NCBI GenBank assembly: GCA_021323605.1 | Contig: JAJPKS010000328.1 | Location: 1 to 33,944 of the forward strand | From: Bacillota bacterium | Lineage (GTDB): Bacteria; Chloroflexota; Dormibacteria; Dormibacterales; Dormibacteraceae | Direction: 5' to 3' | Length of the DNA stretch: 33,944 nucleotides | Notes under the pieces: model-generated | Seen by the model: the letters and a program-made list of their open reading frames with translations, nothing else | What the model was told of the DNA's origin: nothing | Databases searched by the model: none | In this document: piece after piece, positions 1,450-22,845 of the stretch | How the letters are laid out: every line of letters starts with the position of its first letter | Numbering within the stretch: position 1 is the stretch's first letter | Translations under genes and position numbers: made by a program

Positions 1450-1524
1450 TGGTGGGCGGCGCTGGGATCGAACCAGCGACCTCTTGCGTGTGAAGCAAGC
1501 GCTCTCCCGCTGAGCTAGCCGCCC
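1450..1524 (-). tRNA. tRNA-Val(CAC), CCA encoded
   Basis: The minus strand folds as a complete cloverleaf. The acceptor stem GGGCGGC pairs with GCCGCCC, the D arm is GCTC-AGCGGGA-GAGC, and the anticodon stem CTTGC/GCAAG encloses loop TTCACAC with anticodon CAC (valine). The T arm is GCTGG-TTCGATC-CCAGC, the discriminator is A, and CCA is encoded. The integrase remnant begins immediately beyond its 3' end, so this gene is the likely historical attachment site of the decayed element. Confidence 0.95.
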
Positions 1525-3806: not shown

Positions 3807-4066
3807 ACTCGCCGGCCTCGAAGCCATGTCCGCGCTGCGGGGGCCGGGGGCGACCCATCGTCTACGGCCGCCCGACCGCGGCCGCGCTGGAGCTGGCGGC
3901 GAGGGATGAGATCGTGCTCGGGGGGTGCATCGTGGGATCGGACAGCCCGCGCTGGTGCTGCACGGCCTGTCGGCACCGGTGGGGTGGGACCGGTCGTTCG
4001 CCGCTCCCGAGCACACCCGTGCCCGGCGGCCTGGCCGGAGGCGGCGGAGAGGACGAGCCGACGTAG
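3803..4066 (+). CDS. Small zinc-ribbon protein, conserved hypothetical
   Basis: The plus-strand frame encodes about 87 residues with KPCPRCGGRGRPIVYGRP, then LELAARDEIVLGGCIVG, then PRWCCTACRHRWG. Two CxxC knuckles, CPRC and CTAC, frame a YGxP...GEIVLGGC core. I recall this pattern from a widespread family of small actinobacterial-type zinc ribbons with no assigned function. There is no ATG or GTG start in place; the most likely start is CTG 3803, overlapping the preceding stop, but this is uncertain. The C-terminal 20 residues are low-complexity. The stop TAG (4064-4066) lies inside the tRNA-Thr gene, so the gene end and the tRNA 5' end overlap by 10 bases. It may be cotranslated with the dehydratase. 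Confidence 0.6.
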   Translation: MNSPASKPCPRCGGRGRPIVYGRPTAAALELAARDEIVLGGCIVGSDSPRWCCTACRHRWGGTGRSPLPSTPVPGGLAGGGGEDEPT

Positions 4067-4133
4067 CTCAGGCCGGCAGAGCGATCGCCTTGTAAGCGAT
4101 TGGTCGGGGGTTCGAATCCCCCCGTCGGCTCCA
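4057..4133 (+). tRNA. tRNA-Thr(TGT), CCA encoded
   Basis: The plus strand gives a full cloverleaf. Acceptor GCCGACG pairs with CGTCGGC, the D arm is GCTC-AGGCCGGCA-GAGC, and the anticodon stem ATCGC/GCGAT encloses loop CTTGTAA with anticodon TGT (threonine). The T arm is GGGGG-TTCGAAT-CCCCC, the discriminator is T, and CCA is encoded. Its first ten bases overlap the end of the small zinc-ribbon gene. Confidence 0.96.
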
Positions 4134-18558: not shown

Positions 18559-19794
18559 TCAGAAGTCGCCCTCGAGGAGGTAGAGGCCGCCGGTGAAGCG
18601 GTCGACGGCGTAGACGATCCGTTTCTCGTCGACGAACACGTCGTTGACCTGGGCGGCGCCGGCCGGCGAGCCGGGGGGAGGTGGCGGCACGAAGTACGCC
18701 ACCTCCCGAGGATGGAAGGGGTCGCGCACGTCGTACACGCGTACCCCGGCGTTGAAGAACGCGCCCACCAGGTGCTCCTCGGAACGCCAGGACACCTCCA
18801 CCGGGTCGTTCTCGTGCAGGTTGTGGGGGCCGAAGCGTCCACCTCGGTGGCGGAAGTCCTCCGCCGGCGGGAGGGGGGCGGTGCCCAGGATGGTGAGGTT
18901 GCTCTCCACGCTGCAATCGACCAGCCAGAGGTGCTTGGGATGGTCAGCGCCACCGTCCACCACGGTTTCGTCGGTGACCGCCAGCAGCCCTCGGTCCAAC
19001 AGGGGCAGCACGGTGTGGGTGAAGCCGGTCATGGGCGGGTGATAGTCGAGGCGTGACACCTGCCGGGGTCGGGACGGCTGGGAGATGTCCAGGACGACGA
19101 TCCCGCCGTCCAGGTAGCCGACGTAGGCTCGGTCGGGGCGCCGGGGATAGACGTTGACGTTGTGGGCCCGATAGCCGCCGTCGAAGCGCGGGTGACGCGC
19201 CGGGGGCTCCACGTCGTCGCCGCGGCGGGTCCCCGGGAGCCACCAGCGGCCCACCTCCCGCGGCCGGTCGGGCCGGGTCAGGTCCACGATCACCGGGATC
19301 TGGTGGTCCCTGGGATGCGAGGGCTCGAAGTCGGGCATACCGGTGGAGAGGTAGGCGTACCGGCCGTCCACGAACCAGACGAAGTGGACGCCCAGGGAGT
19401 GCGGACCCGAGGTGTCGAAGAAGCCCACCGGGCGCGGTCGCTCGGGATCGGTGAGGTCGAAGACCTCGAGCCCGACCTGCCCCGGTTCGGTGCCGGCCGC
19501 CGACGCCTGCTCCAGGTGGACCTGGTAGGCCACCACCAGCAGGCCGGCACAGACGGCCAGGGAGTTGGAGCGCAGCCGTGGATCGCGCAGCCGCGTCTGG
19601 TCGACCAGCCGGGGCCGACGGGGGTCGGTCACCTCGACCACGCTGAAGTTCACCGGCCCTCGCTCGTGGGCGATGTAGAGGTAACGGCGACCGCCGGCGA
19701 CGTGAATGCCCATCCCCTCTCCGCCGTTGCCGTGGCCGGCCAGGTCGTGGTGCCCGAGCAGACGCAGGTTTCGGGCTTCGGCGTTGGCCATCAT
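18559..19794 (-). CDS. LVIVD-repeat beta-propeller protein
   Basis: The product (411 aa) is built of repeated blade motifs of the LVIVD type (pattern ...YLYIAHE..., VVEVTDPRRPRLV, LEVFDLTDPERPRPVG, PVIVDLTRPDRPREVG, GGIVVLDISQPSRPRQVS, VRVYDVRDPFHPREVA). Each ends in D-[IVL]-[ST]-x-P-x-x-P-x-x-[VL], giving about six or seven blades of a beta-propeller. Such proteins are often surface or scaffold proteins and have no defined catalytic role; some are annotated as selenium-binding-like because of their fold. A signal peptide is not obvious. The ATG at 19794 is used because ATGATG follows a GGAGG site. Its role in this neighbourhood is unknown. Confidence 0.82.
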   Translation of the reverse strand: MMANAEARNLRLLGHHDLAGHGNGGEGMGIHVAGGRRYLYIAHERGPVNFSVVEVTDPRRPRLVDQTRLRDPRLRSNSLAVCAGLLVVAYQVHLEQASAAGTEPGQVGLEVFDLTDPERPRPVGFFDTSGPHSLGVHFVWFVDGRYAYLSTGMPDFEPSHPRDHQIPVIVDLTRPDRPREVGRWWLPGTRRGDDVEPPARHPRFDGGYRAHNVNVYPRRPDRAYVGYLDGGIVVLDISQPSRPRQVSRLDYHPPMTGFTHTVLPLLDRGLLAVTDETVVDGGADHPKHLWLVDCSVESNLTILGTAPLPPAEDFRHRGGRFGPHNLHENDPVEVSWRSEEHLVGAFFNAGVRVYDVRDPFHPREVAYFVPPPPPGSPAGAAQVNDVFVDEKRIVYAVDRFTGGLYLLEGDF

Positions 19795-20036
19795 CCGCGT
19801 TCCAACCTCCCACCTCGTCGGGTTCAGCCCGGGCAGCACACGCCCGGGCCACCTCTCGACCACACGGGACACTGATCCATCGCCCCCCGCCCGCGCCGGC
19901 AGGAGCCGAACGCCGCCCCGCGCATCGCTTTCCGACCATTCGACCCGTCGCCGGGCACGCTCCCGTGGCCGGGCGCGGCTCAGGCCAGCGGACCTCGGCC
20001 CCCTGGCCGGCCCGCGCCGTGCACCGGCACCTCGCC

Positions 20037-20720: not shown

Positions 20721-20857
20721 CTCCAGGGCGGGAGCGTACCGCGATTCGGCGAGGTCGGGGAACTCGGGGTCGCGGCAACGGCCGAGGACGAAGGCGGAGC
20801 GGTGCCGTCGGCAGACGGCACGCGCTCCGTCGGATGGGAGGAAGGGGAGTGCCCGCG

Positions 20858-22291
20858 CTAGGTGGTCGGGGGAGCGGAGCTCTCCTGGCTGGTCAGGCTG
20901 TGGTTCGACGCCTGCCCGAGCGCGACGTTGGCCTGGGCCACGTCACCGGTCTTGACCCGGCTCAGAACCGTGACCGGGGCGTTGACGTTGACCTGGGCCA
21001 CGCCCGTCTGACCGGTGGCGGACTGGTCGGTGGTGCTGCTCAGGGACCCGGAAGGCAGCTCATCGGCACCGTTGCTGATGAGATCACCACCACTCGACTC
21101 CTGGGAGGTGGTGGAGCCGTTGGACGCCTCGCCGGTCGAGATGTTGGCCTGTCTCACGTCGCCGCCCTCGACCCGACTCAGAACCGCGACCGGGGCGTTG
21201 ACGTTGACCTGGGTGGTCGTGTCCTGGCCCACGGCGGTCTGCACCGGGTCGTTCGGATCGGATTGATGAGTCCGGCTCTGGTTGGACGCGTGACCGATGG
21301 CGACGTTGGCCTGTTGGACGTCCCCGCTCCGGACCCGGCTCAGGACCGTGACCGGATCGTTCACGTTGACCTGGACCGTACCCATCTGACCGGTTGCGGA
21401 TTGGGTGGTGCTGCTGGTGGCGGGATCGGCGAGCGACGCCGGTCCCAGGTTCGGCCCCACCGCCTCCGGTTGGGTATTCGACCCCACCGTTCCCGGCTGG
21501 ACGGAATCGGACTGGATCCGGGCGGCGGCATCGTGGGCCCGAGCGAGTGGGCCCTCAAGGCCCGGGAGGCCGGAGGCATCCGCCACGCCAGGGGCACCGC
21601 TGGAGTCCGGCGCACTTCCGAGCGAATTCACGACCTCCTGGACCGTCTGGTCCGTGTTCGACCGGGTGCCGAGGCTGGCACGGCCGGCGACGATGCCGCC
21701 TGGGATCGGCGGGTCCCCCGCGGCCTCGGACATCGCCAGGGCCAGAGGGGCACTCAGGGGCGGCTGCTCGGCTTCCTGGCGGGTCGCGGAGGCGTTCGAA
21801 ACGCTGCCACGCTGGACGTTGGCCTGGGCGACGTCCCCGGAATCGACCTCGCTCCAAAGGACGACCGGGTCGCTCTCGTTGCGCAGCGGCCTCGGGTCCT
21901 GGCCGATCAGCGTCTGACCGGTGGTCTGATCCAGGGTGGCATCGCCGGTCTCGTCGCTCTGCTTGCCCGTGGCCTCGTCATCGGCCGATCCCAGCGCGAC
22001 GTTGGCCTGCGCCACATCGCCGCCGTTGACCCTGCTCCCGAGCGTGAAGGGGCCGTTCTCGTTCCTCTCGCGGACGTCCAGCTGGCCGGTCGTGTCCTGC
22101 TGGGTATCCGAGGTGAGATCGCTCGGATCACCGCCGAGGGGCCAGCGCGCCTGGCTCTGGGCGAGGTTGCTCTGGGTGGTGGAGCCTCCCCGACCGGGGC
22201 CGACCAGGGCCTGGGTACTGCCCGCGCTCAGCGCGATCGAGGCAGCGAGGCTCAGGCTCGCCCCCATGGTCCGGAAGAGACGGGACCTCAT
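20858..22291 (-). CDS. Secreted repeat protein of unknown function (NVNxPVxVLS/GDVxQANV repeats)
   Basis: The 477-residue product begins with a clear Sec signal peptide (MRSRLFRTMGASLSLAASIALSAGSTQA). ATG 22291 is chosen because it follows a GGAGG site 11 bases upstream. The mature protein is rich in Gln, Asn, Ser, Thr, Gly and Val, has no cysteine, and contains five copies of a ~45-residue repeat. Its consensus is Q-V-N-V-N-x-P-V-x-V-L-S-R-V-x-x-G-D-V-x-Q-A-N-V-x-x-G-x-A-S-N-x-S-x-T-x-Q. The last three copies are nearly identical and the first two more divergent. A Pro/Ala-rich linker (about 176-295) separates copies 1-2 from 3-5. There is no membrane anchor or catalytic motif. Regularly spaced Gln/Asn and beta-branched residues resemble amyloid-forming curlin-type repeats, so an extracellular fibre or coat role is possible, but that is inference. 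Confidence 0.7.
   Translation of the reverse strand: MRSRLFRTMGASLSLAASIALSAGSTQALVGPGRGGSTTQSNLAQSQARWPLGGDPSDLTSDTQQDTTGQLDVRERNENGPFTLGSRVNGGDVAQANVALGSADDEATGKQSDETGDATLDQTTGQTLIGQDPRPLRNESDPVVLWSEVDSGDVAQANVQRGSVSNASATRQEAEQPPLSAPLALAMSEAAGDPPIPGGIVAGRASLGTRSNTDQTVQEVVNSLGSAPDSSGAPGVADASGLPGLEGPLARAHDAAARIQSDSVQPGTVGSNTQPEAVGPNLGPASLADPATSSTTQSATGQMGTVQVNVNDPVTVLSRVRSGDVQQANVAIGHASNQSRTHQSDPNDPVQTAVGQDTTTQVNVNAPVAVLSRVEGGDVRQANISTGEASNGSTTSQESSGGDLISNGADELPSGSLSSTTDQSATGQTGVAQVNVNAPVTVLSRVKTGDVAQANVALGQASNHSLTSQESSAPPTT
20885..22102 (-). repeat. Five in-frame ~45-residue repeats within the secreted protein
   Basis: Copies lie at approximately 22102-21959, 21928-21776, 21403-21263, 21238-21101 and 21022-20885. 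Each carries the invariant sub-motif GDVxQAN[VI] preceded by a PVxVLS-type strand (PFTLGS and PVVLWS in the first two copies) and followed by a Ser/Asn/Thr/Gln-rich tail. The DNA of copies 3-5 is also clearly related, suggesting recent internal duplication. Confidence 0.75.
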
Positions 22292-22845
22292 GAACCGATG
22301 TACCTCCTCAATCGAGTCTTGCCTGCCACACCGGCCGGAGAGCCGGCCGGTCGATCGGCGGTCCCACTCCTCCCGATCGAGTCGGCTGCTCAAGCCCCTT
22401 CCGAGCGCGTCACCTCCTCCCGGCCTGGACGCCGGTCAGCGGGGACGAGGGGGTCGCAGGCCACGCCTCACGCTGGAGGACCCGGCGCGTGGCGCCGGTG
22501 CGACCGCCGCTCAGCCGGTGCCGGACCGGAAGGTCGCCCGGAGGACGAGCGATCCAGCCCCCAACACCCCCATGACGGCCGCGTCGCTGCCGGCGCACGG
22601 TCTCCCGGCGCATTCGGCAATCCCCGATGGCCCATGGGAACCGCCCCCGCGCCCCCGCCCATGCAACCCGCGGTCACGTAATCCGGTACGTCAAAGAGAA
22701 GGAAATGGATAACCCTTCATGGAGGATTTCTCCCCCGAGCGCTCGGGGTCGGCTCGCTCCCACCCCCTGGGCGAGCCGCCCCCAGGGAGACCGCGGGCGC
22801 CGGGCGGCTCGCCGACGGCCGGGTGATCCCGGCGCCCGCGGCCGG
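22292..22845. promoter_or_regulatory. Long intergenic region between repeat protein and gentisate dioxygenase genes
   Basis: These 554 bases contain no supported gene; open frames here lack recognisable products. They should carry the repeat-protein promoter (minus strand, near 22292-22400) and the end of the dioxygenase transcript. A strikingly AT-richer island at about 22676-22732 (cgtcaaagagaaggaaatgg ... gataacccttcatgg) and a perfect palindrome at 22733-22748 stand out. Neither was assigned to a known RNA family. Confidence 0.4.
22733..22748. other. Perfect 16-base palindrome, possible terminator or operator
   Basis: CCCCGAGC-GCTCGGGG is a perfect palindrome, about 100 bases past the end of the gentisate dioxygenase gene on the minus strand and adjacent to an AT-rich island. 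It may be a transcription stop for the dioxygenase mRNA or a protein-binding site; no run of T follows on either strand. Confidence 0.3.

Follow-up and report, generated by a model that had tools for sequence, protein, structure and literature searches.

A lineage-restricted protein with a predicted export signal and five Gln/Asn-patterned repeats that may stack as beta layers

The window, a 33,944-nucleotide stretch of DNA from an uncultured and very GC-rich (68-78%) bacterium, carries a gene for a protein that combines an export signal with five repeats, an invariant Gln/Asn/Gly/Val register within them and linkers between them (Table 1). We propose, with a probability of roughly 0.4, that the protein is secreted, restricted to its lineage and assembled into a matrix or fiber by the stacking of its repeats as beta layers, resembling curli and FapC without belonging to either. 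Its most likely identity is that of a structural protein outside the cell, made of stacked beta layers; the stacking itself is moderately likely, and we hypothesize that the protein polymerizes into fibers.

Table 1. Features of the repeat gene, in window coordinates
Feature	Residues	Position	Strand	Basis
Repeat-protein CDS, 477 aa		20858..22291	-	translation; codon usage; GC by codon position
AGGAGGT, Shine-Dalgarno-like, 10 nt 5' of ATG		22302..22308	-	sequence reading; function inferred
Open frame of 615 codons, judged a shadow ORF		20834..22681	+	codon register; codon log-odds
Sec-type signal peptide, predicted cleavage after STQA	1-28	22208..22291	-	sequence; hydropathy maximum
Repeat R1, most degenerate end (DEATGKQ)	61-113	21953..22111	-	profile, 92.5 bits
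Repeat R2	122-175	21767..21928	-	profile, 93.5 bits
Linker R2-R3, 117 aa, 26% Gly+Pro, 9% Gln+Asn, with remnant-like SLGTRSNTDQTVQE	176-292	21416..21766	-	
Repeat R3	293-345	21257..21415	-	profile, 95.9 bits
Repeat R4	348-400	21092..21250	-	profile, 89.4 bits
Repeat R5	419-472	20876..21037	-	profile, 94.7 bits

With 615 codons open on the opposite strand, the strand of the repeat gene was put to the test. Codon log-odds, calculated against the codon usage of neighboring genes, reach 0.258 bits/codon in the minus frame and do not exceed 0.054 in any of the others, and GC at codon positions 1/2/3 (.68/.56/.86) is like that of real neighbor genes. Amino-acid identity between repeat pairs peaks in the minus frame for nearly all pairs; the synonymous and nonsynonymous counts across repeats also lean to this frame, but are noisy. 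Translation of the minus strand starts with the ATG at 22291 and stops at 20858-20860, which confirms the interval 20858-22291 reported by an earlier, sequence-only reading. The codons of the plus frame lie exactly opposite the minus-strand codons, and its log-odds of 0.054 is like the 0.065 of the shadow frame of the neighboring aldolase gene; we rejected it as a gene. That the repeat ORF is no gene, or that the real gene is the plus-strand frame, is highly improbable: the plus frame is open over the whole stretch, but codon usage, GC3, the start with its Shine-Dalgarno-like sequence and the signal peptide all favor the minus strand. Judged by these coding signals, we read the five-repeat protein as a real gene product. 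Several weak profile matches in other genomes are likewise antisense frames, which calls for caution wherever a Q/N/V pattern comes from a shadow frame of high-GC DNA. The ~550 bases upstream of the gene (22292-22845) show no coding signal in any frame and are probably its promoter region; a search at the gene for sigma-70 promoter and intrinsic terminator patterns yielded neither, a result that weighs little at such GC.

The predicted signal peptide, MRSRLFRTMGASLSLAASIALSAGSTQA, is the most hydrophobic stretch of the whole protein and comprises three arginines, a hydrophobic core and STQA ahead of the likely cut, features that bear out the signal peptide first noticed by eye and make export very likely. 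Functional amyloids are exported, and this predicted peptide would give the repeat protein the same property. No second membrane segment, C-terminal transmembrane segment or LPxTG/sorting signal is apparent in its sequence or hydropathy. The protein is acidic and, as had been claimed, free of cysteine (zero in 477 residues); its mature chain is rich in S, A, G, T, Q, D and P, with one Phe, two Trp and no Tyr.

A profile built from the copies recovers exactly five repeats at 89-96 bits each, the number counted originally, with a unit of 53-54 residues rather than the ~45 first given. Over 45 residues, the highest self-match score is 166, vs at most 52 in 100 shuffles, and the gaps between successive repeats are 8, 117, 2 and 18 residues. 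The consensus is sxTxQxATGQxxxxQVNVNxPVxVLSRVxxGDVxQANVAxGxASNxSxTxQxs. Fifteen positions (Q, G, Q, N, P, S, V, G, D, V, Q, A, N, G, Q) are invariant in all five repeats, yet DNA identity across the five is 55-76%. Among the invariant or near-invariant Gln/Asn are Q+4, N+6, N+14 and Q+20, counted from the Gly of GDV. The NVNxPV motif by which the repeat had been described holds its NVN in R3-R5 and reads NEN in R1 and NES in R2. Over a 44-residue core, R3-R5 share 64-70% amino-acid and 65-76% DNA identity, and R1 and R2 are more distant than R3-R5 are from one another. These values contradict the earlier impression that the last three copies are near-identical and that duplication was recent; since core identity is only this high, the repeats read as old, diverged duplicates. 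Synonymous divergence exceeds nonsynonymous divergence in R3-R4 and R3-R5, and not in R4-R5. Two short segments, GSTTQSNLAQ (residues 36-45) and SLGTRSNTDQTVQE (residues 206-219), score below zero against the profile and are only suggestive of weak half-copies. Gln+Asn makes up 17-21% of the repeats vs 6-12% of the linkers and N-terminal segment (mature CsgA, 21%), and the QVNVN and DVxQANVA segments alternate in hydropathy from one residue to the next.

The repeat protein has no family match in Pfam, NCBIfam or the PDB and none in PHROGs below E=0.16; these four collections showed no enzymatic, binding or anchoring domain in it, in line with a non-enzymatic protein. A 25-residue stretch aligned to the PDZ domain of PDLIM5 in the PDB profile search (E=0.01) was rejected as chance because the match is short, eukaryotic, covers a partial PDZ domain and has no Pfam PDZ counterpart. 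Sensitive profile searches covered the organism's own genome, genus, family and class, a sample of the phylum and two other classes. The gene is the sole copy in its own genome, and a same-genus genome has no match. A search with the repeat profile, of the kind suggested in the sequence-only reading, produced no credible relative outside the gene, whether among 110 genomes of the class or in a 400-genome phylum sample; there was likewise no credible match in 396 genomes of another class or in 29 genomes of a third, the last a sample insufficient alone to prove absence. Most of the weak matches (E 0.002-2) with a given locus were inspected singly, and all those inspected were antisense frames or unrelated proteins. 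No relative turned up in plasmids, phages or viral contigs, the one viral-contig match being a lone NVNAPVIVL inside an unrelated ORF. GTDB-wide scans with near-exact 8-residue patterns also returned no relative, and would miss distant ones because the patterns are near-exact and eight residues long. Within the limits of sensitive searches at the level of the phylum and near-exact scans across GTDB, the protein thus appears to be an orphan, or lineage-restricted.

The same-strand neighbors of the gene are catabolic by their Pfam matches: a cupin protein lies upstream, across a ~550-base gap, and a class II aldolase followed by an LVIVD-repeat protein downstream, with a CoA transferase and a creatininase farther out in the window. 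The LVIVD-repeat protein, two genes downstream (18559-19872, minus strand), has a single repeat by Pfam (E=4.9e-07). The window also contains tRNA-Val(cac) at 1450-1524 (minus strand) and tRNA-Thr(tgt) at 4057-4133 (plus strand). The search for secretion partners close to the gene came back empty, with no secretion or assembly gene, dedicated exporter, chaperone, sortase or second repeat protein identified within the window. A same-genus genome encodes an aldolase orthologue 69% identical to the downstream aldolase, vs 44-54% identity for other families, which argues that the contig is correctly binned. By eye, an arginase-like gene of opposite orientation lies upstream of that orthologue and a frame resembling a sedolisin protease downstream of it; synteny is poor there because none of the other window genes tested occurs in that 16-kb contig stretch.

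The ~23-residue repeats of curli are beta-arches, each made of two N-x-psi-x-psi-x-Q half-motifs with Gln/Asn facing inward (PMC10192328); in FapC, three ~38-residue repeats are joined by variable linkers, each repeat forming one cross-beta layer with conserved Asn/Gln (PMC12392863), and the minimal Fap repeat is defined as X15GX4NX3GX6NX7 (PMC3792158). The repeat protein is like CsgA in having five repeats, Gln/Asn at fixed register and one N-x-psi-x-psi-x-Q half-motif at the end of each of R2-R5, whereas its unit is 53 rather than ~23 residues, the paired second half is absent and R1 lacks the half-motif altogether. This half-motif was picked after looking, and a column shuffle puts its match at 3.9%. 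The full curlin motif SX5QX4NX5Q occurs 0 times, vs 5/5 in the E. coli CsgA control, which fits the original remark that the repeat recalls curlin with a distinct consensus. Pfam Curlin_rpt has no match in the protein and none over cut-off in its own genome and 20 relatives (E. coli control positive), CsgG is missing from its own genome (89% complete) and the 20 relatives while four control genomes score over cut-off, and hhalign of the protein to CsgA is null. Membership in curli was rejected on these absences, with the positive controls working.

With FapC and FapB the protein shares a predicted export route, imperfect Asn/Gln/Gly-rich repeats and linkers of very variable length (PMC3792158, PMC12392863), and there is a local likeness between GN-V-x-x-NVAAG of Fap and GDVxQANVAxG. 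It differs in spacing (G-X5-N-X3-G, with no Asn at +7), in repeat length (53 vs ~38 residues) and in the lack of recognized fap-like genes beside it, by the Pfam matches of its neighbors; the literature, moreover, confines Fap to Proteobacteria. The Fap motif X15GX4NX3GX6NX7 has 0 matches in the protein and the Fap profile comparison gives an hhalign probability of 1.3% over 8 columns, and membership in Fap was rejected. Alignment scores are no better than column shuffles for Fap repeats (97/500) or CsgA repeats (446/500). In FapC, replacing Gln/Asn of the repeats by Ala slows assembly. Also comparable are the chaplins and rodlins of Streptomyces, which are small, exported and rich in Val/Asn and coat the surface with amyloid. 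They differ in their cysteine pair, and neither family is known to have a multi-copy 53-residue repeat; the chaplin domain ChpA-C (PF03777) has no match in the repeat protein and none over cut-off in 20 relatives, and membership in chaplins was likewise rejected. Because the motif, Pfam and profile tests failed, the protein cannot be placed in curli, Fap or chaplins; by analogy, it would work like curli or FapC as a member of neither.

AF2 modeling of the full protein without an alignment gave low confidence (mean pLDDT 40), as did a repeat-shifted self-alignment (pLDDT 32). A strand nevertheless recurs in the same register in all five repeats, from about -9 to +8 relative to the Gly of GDV (pLDDT ~52-69), with no long strand elsewhere in this low-confidence model. 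Foldseek on the full model returned nothing significant; its top row, FapC at E=5.6, is meaningless, and the other weak rows, none significant, are mostly ice-binding beta-solenoids. Structure prediction had been suggested as a check for a beta-solenoid; no confident solenoid emerged from it, and the quality of the models is too low to establish how the repeats fold.

From the repeat pattern we infer stacking, polymerization and a matrix role as follows. The gene product would be exported by the Sec route and serve, unanchored, as an acidic structural protein without Cys outside the cell. Each of its 53-residue repeats would form one layer of beta strands: a strand QVNVNxPVxVLS, a turn RVxxGD, a strand VxQANVA, a Gly arc and a strand SNxSxTxQ. 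As one repeat stacks on the next, in the same molecule and perhaps across molecules, inward-facing Gln/Asn would line up into hydrogen-bond ladders and yield a beta-solenoid or amyloid-like matrix fiber, with the Gly/Pro-rich linkers, above all the one of 117 residues, looping out. A fiber or coat function had been put forward as a hypothesis in the sequence-only reading and keeps that standing here. It is quite unlikely, though conceivable, that the protein is the founding member of a new family of functional-amyloid or beta-solenoid fibers, one in which a 53-residue layer joins an N-x-psi-x-psi-x-Q strand of curlin type to a longer Gly arc and which arose independently of curli and Fap in a lineage lacking CsgG.

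Three other explanations bear on this proposal. The repeats may instead fold alone, as a monomeric beta-solenoid or beta-sandwich adhesin or matrix-binding protein that binds a surface, polysaccharide or ice and does not polymerize. The signal peptide, the invariant turn residues (G, P, GD), the strand predicted in each repeat and the ice-binding solenoids among the weak Foldseek rows are consistent with such a protein; however, it matches no adhesin or binding-module family and its array is interrupted by a 117-residue linker, unusual for a rigid solenoid, and we consider this explanation somewhat unlikely. Intrinsic disorder, in an exported low-complexity protein whose repeats act as short linear binding motifs or spacers, would explain the mean pLDDT values and the composition of the mature chain. 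Single-sequence AF2, however, scores poorly on orphans of any fold, and the 15-position register, the alternation of hydrophobic and polar residues and the conserved Gly/Pro/Asp turns exceed the needs of linear motifs; disorder is accordingly an unlikely account.

The remaining explanation concerns kinship rather than fold, namely that high-GC bacteria share a wider, unnamed family of exported repeat proteins to which this one belongs, perhaps as part of the cell envelope or spore coat, with the pattern N-x-P-[VI]-x-[VI]-L-S ... G-[DN]-V-x-Q-x-N ... N-x-x-x-T-x-Q. What speaks for it is a presumed resemblance to actinobacterial proteins, and kin could have escaped our searches, since the sensitive ones addressed this phylum and the GTDB-wide ones used near-exact 8-residue patterns. 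Widening the probe with sequences of this presumed type nonetheless gave nothing credible in the 400 phylum genomes, and plasmids, phages and viral contigs were empty, leaving this family very doubtful.

If the protein is merely a disordered exported one, it would be one more lineage-specific orphan. If the stacked beta layers do form fibers, they would represent another independent route to an extracellular amyloid built on Gln/Asn ladders, in a bacterium that lacks the machinery for curli export, and the compact, Cys-free repeat would offer a means of testing which residues make functional amyloids.
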